The position numbers were made by a program, and so were the translations under genes. Below, piece by piece: positions 48,588-57,537 of a stretch of DNA of 64,000 nucleotides. The notes below the pieces were generated by a model, which had not been told where the DNA came from, did not search any database, and saw only the letters and a program-made list of their open reading frames with translations. The DNA lies in contig JAGYJJ010000004.1 in the NCBI GenBank assembly GCA_018402235.1, positions 951,256 to 1,015,255 on the forward strand. The letters are read 5' to 3'. Within the stretch, counting starts at the first letter, position 1; each line of letters begins with the position of its first letter. This stretch comes from Candidatus Nanopelagicales bacterium (GTDB taxonomy: Bacteria; Actinomycetota; Actinomycetes; S36-B12).

Positions 48588-51110
48588 ATGAGCCTGCACA
48601 TGGGACGAACGTATGCTGAATACGTGGCAAACCCCAGGCGGCTCGCGGTAGTTGCGTCAGCAATGGCTCTAGGCCTCGCCTCTGCGGCGATTTCCACAGC
48701 ACACGCTACGACGAATCCGCAAGACTTAGTGCTAGACGGAGGTCCGATCAGTGCCACGGACTCGATGTCCGTTCAACTCGAGGCAGATCTGTACTTGCCG
48801 CGCACCACCCCGGCACCGGCCGTAGTTCTCGCCCATGGTTTCGGGGGCAGCAAGGAATCGGTGGCAACCGAAGCCGAGTACCTCGTGGATCGGGGCTTTG
48901 TCGTCCTCGCCTACAGCGCCCGTGGTTTTGGAAGTTCCACTGGTCAGATATCAATGAACTCACCCGACTTCGAAATCGCTGACGCCTCAACGCTCATCGA
49001 TTACCTGGCAACGCAGGATGCGGTAACACAGGACGCTCCGGGTGATCCTCGCGTCGGATTTGCGGGTGGTTCCTACGGAGGAGCCCTTTCACTCATGGTG
49101 GCTGGCTATGACGATCGCGTGGACGCAATCTCTGCAGACATCACCTGGAACGATCTACAGACCTCGCTATTCAGTCAATCCGTTATCGACAGCAACGTGA
49201 CCGGTGTCTTCAAGCAACTGTGGAGCGGTCTTTTCTTTAGCGCCGGACTCACCACGAACGATGGCCAAGTTACCGATTGCGGACGCTTCGCCCCCGATTG
49301 GTGCGCGGCTTATTCGACCGCTGCCGCCGATGGCGTACTTACCGAACAGGCACGCCTACTCATGGCGCAGTCATCACCTGCAAGTATCACCAATCGCATC
49401 AGCATTCCCACGTTGCTCGGTGGCGGACAGTCCGACTCGCTCTTTCCACTTGCTCAGGTGAATGCGAACGCCGAGCAGATCGCCGCGAATAACCCAAACG
49501 TGAAAGTTGTCTGGCACGCCGGTGGACACGACGGTGGTGTCAACGAATCGGAGCGGCTGCGTGAGTTGAATGCACAGTGGTTCCAAGCACACCTCGCCAG
49601 CGGACCACCCATAGACGATTCCTTTGAGGTTTCGCTCGTTGAGGCTTCGGCCTTTGGGGGTCAAGCAAACGCAGGGGTTGCGCTTTTATCCCGACCAACC
49701 TACCCGGGCCTATTCGGAGAATCGCAGCGCGCAATTCAGATCGCCGGCCCCCCGCAACAAGTATTGGCACCCGCCGGCGGCGTTCCGGCCGCCATCTCCT
49801 CCCTTCCTGGTGCAGGAGGCTTGGCCGGCCTCGCCGGAGGTCTGCTGGCCTTGCCGCTACCGAACCAATCGGCCACTTTCGCAACCGAGCCACTGACCGA
49901 GTCTGTGCAGATCATCGGGTCTTCGACGATCACCGTGGATATCGCTAGCGAAACCCCCACGCAGAACGTGACCTTGTTCGCCAGCTTGCGCATCATCGGT
50001 GGCACCGAGCGCCCGATACTCCCGCAAGGCTTGGTCGCACCCGTCCTGTTGGAGAACATCGGTCCTACACCCACCACCGTAGCCATCGAACTTCCCGCGA
50101 TCGTGGCAGATGTGGCAGCGGGCGAACGTCTCGCTGTGGTGGTGGGAACCACCGACCAGGCGTACCGAATGCCTCCCGGGCCGGCCGTCTACTCGATTGC
50201 ACTCGCCACGGACAACCTGACTGTGCCGATCACTCCCATGAGTGCAACGGCATCGGGGATGCCGGTGTGGCTGTGGCCACTCATTGCACTCATCGTTTCG
50301 GTCCTCATTGCAGTGCTTGTGCTACTGCTTCGCCCACGGAACACCAAAGCAGCAGCGCGGTCGGATCTCGCCGACGTTCCTATCGCCGTAGAAGGGCTGG
50401 CCAAACACTTCAAGGGCGGCGTACACGCGGTCAACGACGTCACATTCCAGGTACCCCGGGGTGTTGTACTCGGCTTACTCGGACCCAACGGGGCGGGAAA
50501 GACCACCACCATGCGCATGGTCATGGGACTCATCTACCCAACCGGCGGTAACGCGTACGTGTTCGGGCAACCGGTGTTTCCGGGAGCTGCGACGCTTGCG
50601 CATATCGGATCCTTCATTGAGGGCCCCGGCTTCCTGCCGCACCTTTCAGGACGGGAAAACCTGCGCCTGTATTGGGAGGCCAGTGGCCGAGAATCGTCCG
50701 ATCCGAAACTGGACTACGTGCTGGATATCGCAGGGCTTGGAAGTGCGATCGATCGAAAGGTTCGCACCTACAGCCAGGGCATGCGCCAACGCCTAGGAAT
50801 CGCTCAAGCAATGCTCGGCATGCCCGACGTCCTAGTTCTCGATGAACCCACCAACGGACTCGACCCGCCGCAAATCCGGGAAATGCGACAGGTTCTCCAT
50901 GACTACGCCGCCACCGGTCGCACCGTGGTTATCTCCTCGCACCTACTGAGCGAGGTCGAGCAAACCTGTTCGCACGTGGTGGTGATGCACCATGGAGCCC
51001 TCATCGCGCAGGGCACGGTCACCGAGTTGCTCGCCGGCCGCACCGGCGTGCGACTCGAGGACGTGTTCATGGAGATCGTCGGCGAAGGACACGAGGTGGT
51101 CACGTCATGA
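48588..51110 (+). CDS. Fusion protein: exported alpha/beta hydrolase (S15/CocE-like) - TM helix - ABC transporter ATPase
   Basis: Signal-like N-terminus; GFAGGSYGGALSL nucleophile elbow, GGQSDSLFP, HAGGHDGG; TM VWLWPLIALIVSVLIAVLVLLL; LLGPNGAGKTTTMRM, YSQGMRQRLGIAQAMLGMPDVLVLDEPTNGLDP. Confidence 0.9.
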   Translation: MSLHMGRTYAEYVANPRRLAVVASAMALGLASAAISTAHATTNPQDLVLDGGPISATDSMSVQLEADLYLPRTTPAPAVVLAHGFGGSKESVATEAEYLVDRGFVVLAYSARGFGSSTGQISMNSPDFEIADASTLIDYLATQDAVTQDAPGDPRVGFAGGSYGGALSLMVAGYDDRVDAISADITWNDLQTSLFSQSVIDSNVTGVFKQLWSGLFFSAGLTTNDGQVTDCGRFAPDWCAAYSTAAADGVLTEQARLLMAQSSPASITNRISIPTLLGGGQSDSLFPLAQVNANAEQIAANNPNVKVVWHAGGHDGGVNESERLRELNAQWFQAHLASGPPIDDSFEVSLVEASAFGGQANAGVALLSRPTYPGLFGESQRAIQIAGPPQQVLAPAGGVPAAISSLPGAGGLAGLAGGLLALPLPNQSATFATEPLTESVQIIGSSTITVDIASETPTQNVTLFASLRIIGGTERPILPQGLVAPVLLENIGPTPTTVAIELPAIVADVAAGERLAVVVGTTDQAYRMPPGPAVYSIALATDNLTVPITPMSATASGMPVWLWPLIALIVSVLIAVLVLLLRPRNTKAAARSDLADVPIAVEGLAKHFKGGVHAVNDVTFQVPRGVVLGLLGPNGAGKTTTMRMVMGLIYPTGGNAYVFGQPVFPGAATLAHIGSFIEGPGFLPHLSGRENLRLYWEASGRESSDPKLDYVLDIAGLGSAIDRKVRTYSQGMRQRLGIAQAMLGMPDVLVLDEPTNGLDPPQIREMRQVLHDYAATGRTVVISSHLLSEVEQTCSHVVVMHHGALIAQGTVTELLAGRTGVRLEDVFMEIVGEGHEVVTS

Positions 51111-51985
51111 GCGCACCTACCCTCGAGTACTCGCGTCAAGGAACCCTGGGTATTCGCGTTGAGTTGATCCGGCAGATCAAACGTCGTCGCACCCTGGTTG
51201 CCTTCCTGTTGGTGATCGCGCTGCCCTTGATTGTGGTTGCGGCGGTGAAGTTCGGCCCATCGTCAGATGACGGTGGCGGCGGCGGTGGCGATGGCGGCGG
51301 CTTCGGCGACGGCAACTTCGATCTTGTCGGCTTGGCCACGAGCGGGGGGTGGAACTTCGCGCTCACCATGCTGTTGTTCTCCTCCGGATTCTTGTTGGTC
51401 ATCATCGCTGCGATGTTCATGGGCGACACCGTGGCGAGCGAGGCAAGCTGGTCCACCCTTCGGTATCTGCTCGTCGCTCCAGTTCCGCGGCGCCGACTGC
51501 TACGAACAAAAGCGATCGTTGGTCTGATCTTGACGGCGATTGTGCTGCTAACCCTTGTTGTCGCGTCATGGGCTATCGGCGCGATCGCTTTCGGGACAGG
51601 TCCACTCGCCAGTCCGTTCGGTGGCGCACTGACCCAAGCCGAGTCGGCACAGCGACTATCGATCGTGGCGACCTACATCGCCATCACTTTGCTGTTCCCC
51701 GCGGGGTTGGCCTTTCTCATGAGTGTGCTCACCGACGTTCCCTTGGGCGCAGTGGGGACCGCCGTGGTGGTGGTAATCGTCCTCAACATCCTCGACGCCA
51801 TCGACGCCCTCGGCACGCTGCGTCGTTTCCTGCCCGGTGACTACGGCACCGCCTGGGTGGATGCCCTTAATCCGACCATCGTGTGGGACCAGATGGCTGT
51901 CGGTCTGGCCTACAACCTGATGGCCTTCGCGATTCTGATAGGGATCGCAGTGCTGCGCTTCGACCGCAAGGACATCACGTCCTAG
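51107..51985 (+). CDS. ABC-2 type transporter permease
   Basis: Overlaps ATPase stop; six-TM-like profile; Gly/Asp-rich loop SSDDGGGGGGDGGGFGDGNFD. Confidence 0.88.
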   Translation: MSAPTLEYSRQGTLGIRVELIRQIKRRRTLVAFLLVIALPLIVVAAVKFGPSSDDGGGGGGDGGGFGDGNFDLVGLATSGGWNFALTMLLFSSGFLLVIIAAMFMGDTVASEASWSTLRYLLVAPVPRRRLLRTKAIVGLILTAIVLLTLVVASWAIGAIAFGTGPLASPFGGALTQAESAQRLSIVATYIAITLLFPAGLAFLMSVLTDVPLGAVGTAVVVVIVLNILDAIDALGTLRRFLPGDYGTAWVDALNPTIVWDQMAVGLAYNLMAFAILIGIAVLRFDRKDITS

Positions 51986-52201: not shown

Positions 52202-53062
52202 TTAGGTCGCTAGTACCGACCGCCGTCCACACACCTCCCGCACCACTCGCGCGAGATCATCAGCGGCCTGAGCCACCGCTGTCGGGGCTCGGTGTAAATC
52301 GACGGTCACCGGTGCCATCGCTGGTAACTCAAAGGCTTCCCCAACATCCACAAGACCTGCCGGTATCGAACGACGTGCCTTGACGGCAACGGCCAAGCCC
52401 GCCGCCACGGTCGCATTGACGGCCGCAGCGCTATCGCTTACGTACCGAACAGTCCAATCAATCCCTGCTCGGGCCAGCGCATCAATCGCATTCGCGCGAT
52501 GGATGCACCCTTCGGGATTTGCGGCAATCGGTAGCGGCTGGTCGCGATCCCACTTGATCTGCGGATGCCCGATCCAAACTAGATCCTCAATATCGATGGT
52601 TTCACCGGGCAGTGAATCTCGATGGCGGATGGTCAGCGCGACATCGAGCAGCCCAGCAGCCAATTTATCTGCCAATACCGAGGACACCGAGCAGTCGATT
52701 TGCACCCCCACCTCGGGGTGCAACGCCGTGAAGCGCCGGAGTATCTCGGGCAAAAAACGGTCGGCTTGCTCGGCCGTGATGCCCAGGCGTAAGGCAGGCC
52801 GGTTCCCCCCACCACTCACCAACGAACTCACGGTGTCGCTGAGGTTGAGCAGTTGGCGAGCGTAGGGCAGCAAGGTGGTGCCCGCGTCGGTCAAGACGAC
52901 GCTGCGGGTGGTGCGATCGAATAGCCGAACACCGAGGTGTCGTTCCAACGAGGAGATCTGCGCGCTCACCGCCGACTGGGTCAGCCCCAATACCTGTCCT
53001 GCGGAGGAGAATCCATGCGTTTCGGCTACAGCGACGAATGTCCCAAGCTGGTGTAGGTCCAC
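52202..53062 (-). CDS. LysR-family transcriptional regulator
   Basis: MDLHQLGTFVAVAETHGFSSAGQVLGLTQSAVSAQISSLERHLGVRLFDRTTRSVVLTDAG HTH. Confidence 0.95.
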   Translation of the reverse strand: MDLHQLGTFVAVAETHGFSSAGQVLGLTQSAVSAQISSLERHLGVRLFDRTTRSVVLTDAGTTLLPYARQLLNLSDTVSSLVSGGGNRPALRLGITAEQADRFLPEILRRFTALHPEVGVQIDCSVSSVLADKLAAGLLDVALTIRHRDSLPGETIDIEDLVWIGHPQIKWDRDQPLPIAANPEGCIHRANAIDALARAGIDWTVRYVSDSAAAVNATVAAGLAVAVKARRSIPAGLVDVGEAFELPAMAPVTVDLHRAPTAVAQAADDLARVVREVCGRRSVLAT

Positions 53063-53125
53063 CCGATCAATTTACAACAAAAATCGATAGGTCTTGCCGG
53101 AAGTATTTGTTTCTCTTTTCATTGA

Positions 53126-53167
53126 TTTCTCCCTAACGTTGCCCCCAGATCAATCCGAAGGGAGAAA
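53126..53167 (+). promoter_or_regulatory. Inverted repeat able to sequester the Shine-Dalgarno of the 2OG-oxygenase gene
   Basis: TTTCTCCCT (53126-53134) is the exact reverse complement of AGGGAGAAA (53159-53167), which contains the SD immediately before ATG at 53169. Confidence 0.55.
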
Positions 53168-53168
53168 C

Positions 53169-53999
53169 ATGAGCGTCATTGATCTGGCCCGCTATCCGAT
53201 CGACCGTCCTGGTCCCGAGCGCGAGGCCTTGGTGGCGACCTGCCGTCAGCAATTGGCCGAGACCGGCTGTGTGGTGCTGGAAGGGTTCGTCACCCAGGAC
53301 GCCTTGGCCGCCATGAACGCTGAAGGCCGGGACCTCGCACCCAGCGCGCACTTCAACACCACCCAGACGAACTGTTACAGCAGCGGCGATGACTCGGCAC
53401 TACCCGAGGGTCACCCCAAACGCGTGTTCATGGAACGCACGAACGGATTCGTGGCCGGGGATCTCATCGGACCTGACTACGCAGTCCGTGGGCTCTACGA
53501 GAATGAAGCCTTGCGAATGTTCGTCGCCGAGTGCATGCAGGTCGAACAGATCCATGAGTACGGCGATCCCCTCGGTCACCTTGTGTTCAATGTTCTGCGC
53601 CCAGGCACCCAGCATCCCTGGCATTTCGACAACAACGGTTTCATCGTGACGTTACTGACCCAAAAGGCCGAAGCCGGTGGGAAATTCGAGTACTGCCCGC
53701 GGATCCGATCCGAAAATGACGAGAACATCGGAGCTGTCGCGGCAACACTCGCCGGTGACGAAGCACTCGTCCATCGCTTGGACCCAGAGCCGGGTTCCTT
53801 GCAGATCTTCTATGGCCGGCACTCCCTGCACCGGGTCACCCGCATCGAAGGTGGCCGGGAACGGCACACGCTGATCCTGGGCTACTCCGATACACCCGGG
53901 GAGATCGCAGACGTCGAGCGCACCAAACGATTGTTCGGGCGGGCGACCGATGAACACGAGCGGGCGGCTCGCGAAGGTCGCGAGCGGGTGTCGGTGTAG
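53169..53999 (+). CDS. 2OG-Fe(II)-dependent oxygenase, ArpA/BesD-like hydroxylase family
   Basis: PGTQHPWHFDNNGFIVTLLTQKAEAGGKFEYCPRIR (HxD), FYGRHSLHRVTRIEGGRERHTLILGYSD (distal His and Arg). Confidence 0.82.
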   Translation: MSVIDLARYPIDRPGPEREALVATCRQQLAETGCVVLEGFVTQDALAAMNAEGRDLAPSAHFNTTQTNCYSSGDDSALPEGHPKRVFMERTNGFVAGDLIGPDYAVRGLYENEALRMFVAECMQVEQIHEYGDPLGHLVFNVLRPGTQHPWHFDNNGFIVTLLTQKAEAGGKFEYCPRIRSENDENIGAVAATLAGDEALVHRLDPEPGSLQIFYGRHSLHRVTRIEGGRERHTLILGYSDTPGEIADVERTKRLFGRATDEHERAAREGRERVSV

Positions 54000-54001
54000 C
54001 G

Positions 54002-55273
54002 ATGCTGCAACCCATCGAGCCCGGAGCACTCACCGACATCGAGACACCAAGCGCCGGCGCAGATGTCACCGGCATCACCGACAGCCTTCCCGGGGGGTTC
54101 GATCCGGTCCGCATGCGTGCTGATCGATTGGCCCGAGTACGGCAGATGATGCGCGAGCAGGACCTTGCGGCTGTCGTCCTTTTCGACCCGTACAACCAGC
54201 GTTACGCCACCGGGTCACGCAACATGTTCGGCTATTTCCTGCGCAACTCGACGCGCTACATCTACGTGCCCCTCGAGGGCGATGTGGTCCTGTTCGAGTA
54301 TCCGGGATCGGCACACGTGTCCACGTGGCTGGAAACCATCGATGACAACCGCACCTCCCAGGTGGTCTGGTCTGCGGTCAACAGCAAGGACGCCGCAGTA
54401 GCCAGCCCCTTCGCGCAGGAAATCGCCGCGCTCGTTCGCGCGGATGGACGCGGTGGCAACCGCGTTGGGTTGGATCGGTGCGGCCATCTGCACGCACTAG
54501 CCCTGGAGGAGGCTGGACTTGAGGTGGTCGATGTGATGGGCGACTTGCTCTACGCGCGCCGCATCAAGACGCCCGACGAAATCGCCTGTCTTCGTATCTC
54601 GATGTCCACTACCGAGGCTGCCATGGCAGCAGTTGAGCGCAGCATTCAGCCGGGTATCTCCGAGAACGAGTTGTTCGGCGTCTTCTACGGCGAAGTGATC
54701 AAGCGCGGCGGGGAGTTCGTGGAGACCCGCTTACTGAACTCTGGACCCCGCACTGAGCCGTGGTTCAACGAGGCCAGCGAGCGCAGAGTGCGACCAGGCG
54801 ACCTGATCGCCTTCGATACCGACACGATCGGCAACAACGGCTACTACTCGGATTTCTCTCGCACCTTTCAGGTGGGACCAGGACGGCCCACCGGTTACCA
54901 GCGCACGCTCTACGGCATGGCCTACGAACAGGTTCAACACAACATCACTCAACTTCGTCCGGGCATGACCTACCGAGAATTGGCGGAGAAGGCGTGGCCG
55001 ATCCCCGAGCGCTACTACGACCGTCGCTACCCCTCGATCATCCACGGAGTTGGGATGCATGGAGAGACTCCGCTCGTGGCGCACTATGGTGATTTTGATC
55101 GGTTCTCCACCGACGACGTCCTAGAGCCTGGCATGGTCGTCTCGGTCGAGAGCTACATCGCCGAAGTAGGCGGCGGTGAGGGAATCAAGCTCGAAGAAGA
55201 GGTGCTGATTACCTCCGATGGAGTGGAGATGATCTCCAAATACCCATTCGACGAGCGCCTCCTGGGATCGTGA
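54002..55273 (+). CDS. M24 (Xaa-Pro peptidase/creatinase) superfamily protein, DddP-like
   Basis: LIAFDTDTIGNNGYYSDFSRTF, IIHGVGMHGETP, VVSVESYIAEVGGGEGIKLEEEVLIT retain the D-D-H-E-E metal ligands; NSGPRTEPWFNEASERRV resembles DddP. Confidence 0.85.
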   Translation: MLQPIEPGALTDIETPSAGADVTGITDSLPGGFDPVRMRADRLARVRQMMREQDLAAVVLFDPYNQRYATGSRNMFGYFLRNSTRYIYVPLEGDVVLFEYPGSAHVSTWLETIDDNRTSQVVWSAVNSKDAAVASPFAQEIAALVRADGRGGNRVGLDRCGHLHALALEEAGLEVVDVMGDLLYARRIKTPDEIACLRISMSTTEAAMAAVERSIQPGISENELFGVFYGEVIKRGGEFVETRLLNSGPRTEPWFNEASERRVRPGDLIAFDTDTIGNNGYYSDFSRTFQVGPGRPTGYQRTLYGMAYEQVQHNITQLRPGMTYRELAEKAWPIPERYYDRRYPSIIHGVGMHGETPLVAHYGDFDRFSTDDVLEPGMVVSVESYIAEVGGGEGIKLEEEVLITSDGVEMISKYPFDERLLGS

Positions 55274-55288
55274 CACCACAATTCAGCC

Positions 55289-56158
55289 ATGCCGGAAAAA
55301 CTCGTCGTTGGTGCGGCCCAGATCCCGACCGTTCCTGAGGACATTGAGGCGAACCTCGAGACCCACCTGGACCACATCGCCCAGGCCCGATCCCGGGGCT
55401 GTGATCTCGTCGTCTTCCCAGAGTTATCCCTGACCGGTTACACCCTGTCCGATGAGAGCTTTCGGCTGGCGCGTTCTCGTCACTCGAAGGTGGTCCGGCA
55501 ACTTGCCGAAGTGTCCGAGGGCATCACTACGCAGTTCGGCTTCATCGAGGAGGGCCCGGCTGCTCAGTTCTACAACGCGACCCTCGCCGTCCGCGACGGA
55601 GAGATACGGCACCTGCACCGCAAAGTGAACTTGCCGTCCTACGGCAACCTCGATGAGAACAAGCACTTTGCGACCGGCCGCTTCATGGAAACGGCTCAAC
55701 TTGATGAGACCTGGCGCTACGCGATCGTGATTTGCGCCGATGCGTGGAATCCGGCACTGGTCCACCTAGCAGCAATGAACGGTGCCAGCTTGCTGAGTAT
55801 CCCGATCAGTTCGTCGGTTGACGCGGTGGGCGGGGAATTTTCAAACCCCAAGGGCTGGGACCTCGCTATCCGGTTCTACGCAATGATGTACGGGATGCCC
55901 GTTGTGATGACGAACCGTGTGGGAACAGAAGGTGGTCACCGATTCTGGGGTGGCTCAGCGATCATTGATGCGCACGGCCATATCTTGGAACAAGCTGGCG
56001 ATGAGCCCACGCTTGTCGTTGCTGAACTCGACTACAACCAAGTCCGTGAAGCACGTTTCCACCTGCCGACTGTGCGCGATTCGAACTTCTCGTTGATCCA
56101 ACGGGAAGTCAATCGTCTATCCAACATTCTAGGTGTTCCCGAGAGCGTCCGCGACTGA
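55289..56158 (+). CDS. Carbon-nitrogen hydrolase (nitrilase superfamily)
   Basis: Catalytic Glu in VVFPELSLTGY, Lys in HLHRKVNLPSYG, Cys in YAIVICADAWNP. Confidence 0.92.
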   Translation: MPEKLVVGAAQIPTVPEDIEANLETHLDHIAQARSRGCDLVVFPELSLTGYTLSDESFRLARSRHSKVVRQLAEVSEGITTQFGFIEEGPAAQFYNATLAVRDGEIRHLHRKVNLPSYGNLDENKHFATGRFMETAQLDETWRYAIVICADAWNPALVHLAAMNGASLLSIPISSSVDAVGGEFSNPKGWDLAIRFYAMMYGMPVVMTNRVGTEGGHRFWGGSAIIDAHGHILEQAGDEPTLVVAELDYNQVREARFHLPTVRDSNFSLIQREVNRLSNILGVPESVRD

Positions 56159-56175
56159 ACTGCGGCGGGGACCTC

Positions 56176-57537
56176 TCAGCCCGAGGTGATGTTCGCAACC
56201 GCCTCGGCGAAAAGTTCGGTGTGTCGATCGACATCGGCTGCCTGGGTGGCCGGACACATCAAGGCCATGTTGTGGAACGGAGTCATGAGCACTCCCCTGT
56301 TTGCCATGAACAAGTGCAGGTACTCCTCAAGATCATCGTCATGCGCTGCCGCTGATTCGCTGCCGGTGCGCGGCGGCGGATCGACGAACCGGTACTCGGC
56401 GCGAGCGCCGAGTTGGGTGATCGTCCAGGGAACCTGGGTATCGGACAGGACCTTCTCCACGCCCTCACGAAAACGTGTTGCCAACTCGATCATGTGATCG
56501 AACGCGAAATCGGTCAGCACCTCGCTCAAAGTCGCGCGCATCGCAGACGTACTCAGGGCATTTCCGGCCAACGTCCCACCCACGCCACCAACATCGATGA
56601 GATCGGCCTCGGGGTGCTGCTGGATACGGTCTGCGATTTCCTGGGTAATGCCGTACGCCCCCGAGGGGACACCCCCACCGATGCTCTTGCCGATCACCAC
56701 GATGTCCGGCCGCAAGTCCCAAAGACGTGTGCAGCCCCCTGGTCCCGCTGAGATGGTGTGGGTCTCATCGATCAGCAGCAATGTTTCGTACTTGTCGCAC
56801 AGTTCACGCACGGATTCCCAGAAACCAGGCTCGGGAAGGACGATGCCGATATTGGTCATGACCGGCTCGGCGATGAGGATCGCAACGTCGCCATGTGCGA
56901 GTGCGCGCTCAACCGATTTCAGATCATTGAACTCAGCAACTCGAGTGGTCTGGGAAACGGGGACGGCCGGACCAACATTTCCCTCACGCTCAATGGTCGA
57001 TCCATTCGGACCCGTTCGCACGAGGGTCTCGTCCACCGCGCCGTGATAGCAGTACGAGAAAGCACAGATCTTGTCGCGACCGGTCACCAGGCGAGCGATT
57101 CGCAGCGCCCAACGATTCGCATCGGTCGCTGTCAGCGCCAGCGACCACAGGGGTAGTCCAAACCGTCGACTTAAGTCGGCGGCAACCCACTCGGCATCGT
57201 CCGTCGGAAGCATCGTGGTGATACCGCCTGCGCCCTCGATGCGATCACGAACAGCACGCACTGTTGCTTCGGGTGAGTGACCGGCCATGGCCCCGGTGTC
57301 GCCCAGTGCGAAATCGATGTACTCATTGCCATCAACATCCACGATCCGGTTGCCTTTGGCTTGCGCGAAATGGATCGGGTGGCCGCCTGCCCATTTATTC
57401 ATCCAGGTCATCGGGACGCGACCCAGCAGATGATCAGCCGCATCGAACAATTCCTTGGACTTCGGCGTGCGGCTTCGGTAGAGCTCAACCTCGCGTGAGA
57501 TGGCGGCGGATAATGCGTCGCGATCGATGCCGCTCAC
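56176..57537 (-). CDS. PLP-dependent class-III aminotransferase (glutamate-1-semialdehyde aminomutase-like)
   Basis: LLLIDETHTISAGPGGCTRLWDLRPDIVVIGKSIGGGVPSGAYG with PLP Lys; DVDGNEYIDFALGDTGAMAGH. Confidence 0.92.
   Translation of the reverse strand: MSGIDRDALSAAISREVELYRSRTPKSKELFDAADHLLGRVPMTWMNKWAGGHPIHFAQAKGNRIVDVDGNEYIDFALGDTGAMAGHSPEATVRAVRDRIEGAGGITTMLPTDDAEWVAADLSRRFGLPLWSLALTATDANRWALRIARLVTGRDKICAFSYCYHGAVDETLVRTGPNGSTIEREGNVGPAVPVSQTTRVAEFNDLKSVERALAHGDVAILIAEPVMTNIGIVLPEPGFWESVRELCDKYETLLLIDETHTISAGPGGCTRLWDLRPDIVVIGKSIGGGVPSGAYGITQEIADRIQQHPEADLIDVGGVGGTLAGNALSTSAMRATLSEVLTDFAFDHMIELATRFREGVEKVLSDTQVPWTITQLGARAEYRFVDPPPRTGSESAAAHDDDLEEYLHLFMANRGVLMTPFHNMALMCPATQAADVDRHTELFAEAVANITSG

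Follow-up and report, generated by a model that had tools for sequence, protein, structure and literature searches.

A conserved LysR, 2-oxoglutarate hydroxylase, DddP-like M24 and amidase gene set that probably serves the catabolism of a betaine-type osmolyte

The window, the whole 64,000-nucleotide stretch of Candidatus Nanopelagicales DNA analyzed here, contains a gene for a LysR-family regulator that diverges from genes for an Fe(II)/2-oxoglutarate (2OG) oxygenase (OXY), an M24-family metal enzyme (M24), and a carbon-nitrogen hydrolase (NIT). These four genes probably constitute a catabolic module, inducible and spread by horizontal transfer, that acts on an osmolyte of the betaine type (an onium zwitterion) taken up from outside. 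The regulator, OXY, and M24 form a core that spans Actinomycetota and Proteobacteria. The open-access literature that was searched yielded no account of this gene set, nor of a betaine pathway built on an M24 enzyme, a 2OG enzyme, and a nitrilase, a result that is weaker than a proof of novelty; the conserved gene kit, common to halophiles and certain actinobacteria, is apparently unstudied.

Gene content of the cluster

A scan for open reading frames (ORFs) recovered all five genes at the positions reported in an earlier, sequence-only reading of this DNA, with gaps of 2 nt between OXY and M24 and 15 nt between M24 and NIT, and Pfam searches confirmed its superfamily assignments. The features are as follows.

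52202-53062, minus strand: LysR-family regulator (Pfam HTH_1 and LysR_substrate), divergent from the operon
53105-53124, no strand assigned: candidate LysR operator ATTTGTTTCTCTTTTCATTG in the LysR-OXY intergenic region, with a similar motif in many relatives
53169-53999, plus strand: OXY, predicted Fe(II)/2-oxoglutarate hydroxylase with a BesD/HalD fold (Pfam HalD, AF2 model, Foldseek, HxD...H...R)
54002-55273, plus strand: M24, dinuclear-metal enzyme that resembles DddP but is distinct from it (best PDB match DddP)
55289-56158, plus strand: NIT, carbon-nitrogen hydrolase of the amidase type (CN_hydrolase, E-K-C triad)
56176-57537, minus strand: class-III aminotransferase, convergent, probable bystander (PRK07046 subfamily cut-off passed)

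The host assembly is 2.2 Mb in size and 94% complete. A second genome of the same genus (locus L062) retains LysR, OXY, M24, and NIT at 84-94% identity, followed by an extra ORF and then the aminotransferase, and OXY is missing from the remaining eight members of the genus. No Rfam elements were found around the cluster. Elsewhere in the window, an 840-aa ORF (48588-51110) apparently runs from a secreted, alpha/beta-hydrolase-like N-terminal part through a transmembrane stretch to an ABC ATPase at the C-terminus, and is followed by an ABC permease-like gene (51107-51985); both were assigned by eye.

Enzymes of the module

The start of OXY at 53169 is backed by an AAGGGAG site just upstream and by orthologs; an alternative, longer ORF opens at a TTG at 53094. 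The protein matches Pfam HalD (46.9 bits, cut-off 26), and its AF2 model (pLDDT 94) retrieved HalB, HalD, BesD, and a BesD-like lysine hydroxylase in Foldseek (TM 0.62-0.66), the best matches being HalB, HalD, and BesD (TM 0.64-0.66). The catalytic residues H152, D154, H221, and R232 are all intact, and H152-x-D154 is kept in the aligned orthologs. Together, the Pfam match, the BesD-like fold, and the HxD...H...R pattern fit the Fe(II)/2OG HalD superfamily. At the iron site, the halogenases have HxG and the lysine hydroxylase HxD, as does OXY. Assignment as a BesD/HalD halogenase was rejected, since HxG is required for it, and OXY is expected to hydroxylate because it carries HxD at the iron. 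The label "BesD/ArpA-type" in the sequence-only reading was thus correct as to fold, with the intact Asp indicating the hydroxylase type. OXY shares the fold and the Fe(II)/2OG site with these proteins, and HxD with the hydroxylase, but differs from all four in sequence (15-18% identity) and in genomic context, and is not of the halogenase type. Two loci (L006 and L040) have a 33% OXY relative directly before a Rieske oxygenase that resembles betaine/choline monooxygenases, and at L046:9998-10594 a short OXY match, possibly a decayed or frameshifted copy, adjoins an M24 gene.

M24 contains the Pfam domains Peptidase_M24 and Creatinase_N. Its closest PDB match is the dimethylsulfoniopropionate (DMSP) lyase DddP (4RZY/4B28; Foldseek TM 0.87, ~35% identity), and the model is closer to DddP than to prolidases, creatinase, or EutD. 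The two enzymes have in common the fold, an osmolyte-related context, Tyr366, and the six DddP metal ligands (D295, D297, D307, H371, E406, and E421), which are invariant in M24 and in all aligned relatives. In structural work on DddP, Tyr366 and Asp377 are both invariant and Asp377 is the favored base (PMC4108388), whereas M24 has Gly354 at the latter position, as do 79 of 80 orthologs (Gly). The NCBIfam model for DddP (NF043017) scores M24 at 294.8 bits against a cut-off of 600. In the M24 tree, the window protein belongs to a clade (100/100) that excludes DddP; the latter clusters with other actinobacterial M24 proteins (the tree includes one DddP sequence, on a long branch). M24 also differs from DddP in its partners, a 2OG hydroxylase and an amidase. 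The name DddP was rejected on the grounds of a cut-off missed by half, the Gly in place of Asp377, and the separate clade. Judged from its sequence, M24 is a DddP-superfamily metal enzyme to which the name DddP should not be applied; it is nearest DddP, which the earlier reading had listed among its relatives, yet in a clade of its own. An ectoine hydrolase (DoeA/EutD) was likewise rejected, as the NCBIfam scores (47.6 and 23 bits) are far below both cut-offs (575 and 613). Creatinase matches are weak, and prolidase models reach 77 bits at most. The EutD/DoeA ectoine pathway is similar in combining an M24 enzyme with an amide-releasing step in the catabolism of a zwitterionic osmolyte, but its enzymes have 17-20% identity to M24 in the fold alignment, besides the very low model scores. 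At locus L043, an OXY-linked actinobacterial M24 keeps Asp at the Asp377 position, groups with DddP in the tree, and adjoins a 3-hydroxyisobutyrate-dehydrogenase-like gene.

NIT matches Pfam CN_hydrolase (131 bits), and its intact catalytic triad (E45/K112/C149) places it in the nitrilase superfamily; its similarities are to N-carbamoylputrescine amidase and to N-carbamoyl amidohydrolases. In the window, as in L062 and L063, it follows M24 in the same gene order, and 33 of the best 80 OXY loci contain it. Of the 201 Halomonadaceae genomes sampled, 69 (about a third) have an M24 ortholog, and NIT occurs in 67 of these versus 4 of the 132 that lack one (Fisher p ~1e-45, from counts that ignore shared ancestry). 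The two genes are within 30 kb of each other in 50 of the 67 genomes holding both; where they are apart, NIT usually adjoins an OsmF-type ABC importer, and often an MmgE/PrpD protein as well. The assignment of NIT to the same system as OXY and M24 is therefore well supported. Some M24 relatives adjoin an amide hydrolase from a different family (isochorismatase, amidase, or M20), which suggests that an amide-cleaving step recurs across them.

Conservation, spread, and regulation

With a profile built from OXY alone, 84,980 GTDB species genomes were searched, and the best 80 loci were analyzed. ORF calls in the loci of relatives come from a simple coding score suited to GC-rich DNA, and some starts may be misplaced. 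M24 immediately follows OXY in all 80 loci, at 62-94% identity to the M24 of the window, and LysR is directly upstream and divergent in 75 (40-84% identity), with three further loci having it ~5 kb away. The members of the core have co-evolved: pairwise distances of OXY and M24 are strongly correlated (Mantel r = 0.939), as is the divergence of LysR and M24 (Mantel r 0.866), with 0 of 999 permutations as high in either case. The hosts of these loci are mainly Halomonadaceae, together with Arhodomonas, Natronospirillum, Marinobacter, Fodinicurvata, Aquibaculum, other Alphaproteobacteria, and Ilumatobacteraceae. Because actinobacterial copies of M24 are interspersed among proteobacterial ones in the tree, the sequences suggest that the module has spread horizontally. 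The sequence-only reading had named confinement to this genome and membership in housekeeping clades as outcomes that would count against the gene set, which survived both checks. Sinorhizobium meliloti has an M24 ortholog with no OXY beside it; given this, M24 may be able to act without OXY.

Many relatives have an ATTCAT-like motif at a nearly constant distance (~37-43 nt) from the start of LysR. A relaxed consensus (up to 4 mismatches) occurs in 31 of 63 intergenic regions against ~1.3 expected in shuffles, an enrichment that is partly circular, since the consensus was built from some of the same sequences, many of them close kin; an earlier, stricter pattern matched 4 of the 63. The element at 53105-53124 is likely an operator for LysR.

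Genomic neighbors in relatives

The core enzymes are linked to betaine transporters in many relatives, although not in the window, where the cluster has no transporter and the OsmF-type importer of the host genome is on another contig. All three of the tested binding proteins encoded next to NIT or M24 belong to the OpuAC family. M24 relatives of two further sub-types in Halomonadaceae have genes for OpuAC-type binding proteins next to them in the majority of the loci inspected; BCCT carriers are also encoded at one of these loci. Glycine-betaine transporters are near LysR-OXY-M24 on Pseudomonas and Caballeronia plasmids, and the M24 ortholog on S. meliloti pSymA is accompanied by an MttB-family methyltransferase, a GlxA-type regulator, an isochorismatase, and a betaine importer. 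OpuAC proteins can also carry non-betaine solutes. Since relatives adjoin OpuAC, OsmF, and BCCT betaine transporters, a small zwitterionic substrate, as the earlier reading had proposed, is likely, and by this analogy the substrate is likely a betaine-type zwitterion.

A gene for MmsA, a CoA-acylating (methyl)malonate-semialdehyde dehydrogenase, comes just after M24 in 40 loci (TIGR01722 657 bits, cut-off 448.5), an adjacency limited to Halomonadaceae and one Natronospirillum. By analogy with these loci, it suggests that the product of the pathway is a C3 or branched C4 semialdehyde. The MmsA of the host is on another contig, in a pyrimidine-type cluster.

Several other loci were noted. A third M24 sub-type, with no OXY of its own, is beside a GcvA-like LysR and an OpuAC-like binding protein (L180, L182, and L185), and in L180 and L185 also with genes for an M20 amidohydrolase, a HIBADH-like protein, and an aldehyde dehydrogenase. 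In the host genome, locus L195 (G000:C1:6000-25000) is a cluster for reductive catabolism of the pyrimidine type, in which a true MmsA (724 bits) is encoded together with a CN hydrolase and a hydantoinase-like protein. Host locus L193 (G000:C4:257000-276000) is an apparent aerobic glycine betaine cluster that contains an MttB-like methyltransferase, corrinoid/pterin-binding proteins, a choline-dehydrogenase-like protein, an aldehyde dehydrogenase, and a ProVWX-like transporter. Aerobic glycine betaine demethylation by MtgBCD (PMC12478193), for which the host genome has a similar set away from the cluster, is comparable to the proposed pathway in that it is a route of betaine catabolism with a betaine transporter and methyltransferases of the corrinoid type, but its chemistry and genes are different from those of LysR-OXY-M24-NIT.

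Proposed pathway and alternatives

From the enzyme families and the neighbors in relatives, we infer a pathway in which an ABC importer of the glycine-betaine family (adjacent in relatives, unlinked here) would bring the betaine-type compound into the cell, and the module would be inducible. OXY would hydroxylate it using Fe(II) and 2-oxoglutarate, and the dinuclear metal site of M24 would then cleave the hydroxylated compound at a carbon-heteroatom bond, most likely C-N. NIT would hydrolyze an amide, either in the substrate or in an intermediate. The carbon skeleton would probably exit as malonate or methylmalonate semialdehyde, to be oxidized by MmsA.

Other readings of the cluster were weighed against this one. 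If M24 were a DMSP lyase, it would convert DMSP to acrylate and dimethyl sulfide, and the other genes would process the products. The closest solved structure (TM 0.87) and the retained metal ligands and Tyr366 are in line with this. DddC is itself an MmsA-type enzyme. A further point in favor is that it accompanies the DddD lyase in DMSP gene clusters (dddC with dddD; PMC9327192). The dddD cluster of Halomonas is comparable in taking a C3 onium zwitterion to malonate semialdehyde with an MmsA-type dehydrogenase, but its lyase is of the CoA-transferase type and it is without M24, OXY, and NIT. A DMSP lyase is very improbable given the score of 295 bits against 600, the Gly in 79 of 80 orthologs where DddP lyases have an invariant Asp377 (PMC4108388), and the separate clade; moreover, cleavage of DMSP requires neither a hydroxylase nor an amidase. 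A role in peptide or amino-acid turnover, with M24 as an Xaa-Pro type dipeptidase and OXY as an amino-acid hydroxylase, would agree with the family name of M24 and with the lysine hydroxylase/halogenase fold of OXY, but it is just as hard to credit, as prolidase models stay at or below 77 bits and the neighbors are betaine importers, not peptide importers. A creatine-like, ureido, or amidine route, in which M24, like creatinase or ectoine hydrolase, would hydrolyze a guanidino, amidine, or ureido compound and NIT would take off the amide or carbamoyl group so formed, draws on the fold common to creatinase and EutD/DoeA, the resemblance of NIT to N-carbamoyl amidohydrolases and N-carbamoylputrescine amidase, and the isochorismatase-family proteins adjoining some M24 relatives. 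We consider it unlikely, since the DoeA/EutD models reach 48 and 23 bits against cut-offs of 575 and 613, creatinase matches are weak, and MttB and OpuAC neighbors indicate methylated onium compounds.

The sequence-only reading had included the class-III aminotransferase (Pfam Aminotran_3) as a fourth enzyme that transaminates the product. Within the genus, it is found only in the two genomes that have the cluster, which are close kin. However, it is on the opposite strand, an extra ORF separates it from NIT in L062, and outside the genus no counterpart was found with the core at E<=1e-6, barring a 26% partial match in L131. Furthermore, it is common in the phylum without the cluster: 50 of 397 sampled genomes have it, whereas the M24 search in the phylum gave an ortholog for the host of the window alone. 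A four-enzyme pathway is thus quite unlikely, and the aminotransferase is probably a bystander. The proposal of a single pathway holds for OXY, M24, and NIT, backed by synteny and co-occurrence, and is unsupported for transamination.

Implications

The module for a betaine-type osmolyte may be one member of a larger group. We tentatively suggest an undescribed family of osmolyte pathways in which a DddP-like M24 enzyme performs the cleavage, usually together with a betaine-family importer, an amide hydrolase, and a 2OG hydroxylase dedicated to the pathway; DddP could be one branch of this family with a changed substrate. DddP is a climate-relevant DMSP lyase that makes dimethyl sulfide, the gas responsible for the smell of the sea, and the module bears on its origin. 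Betaine-type osmolytes are large pools of carbon and nitrogen in saline habitats, and to our knowledge several of them have no known degradation route. Since the module is present in Halomonadaceae, actinobacteria, rhizobia, and soil proteobacteria, there are cultivable strains in which its substrate could be found. In metagenomes, DddP-like M24 genes should not be taken for DMSP lyases without a check for Asp377.
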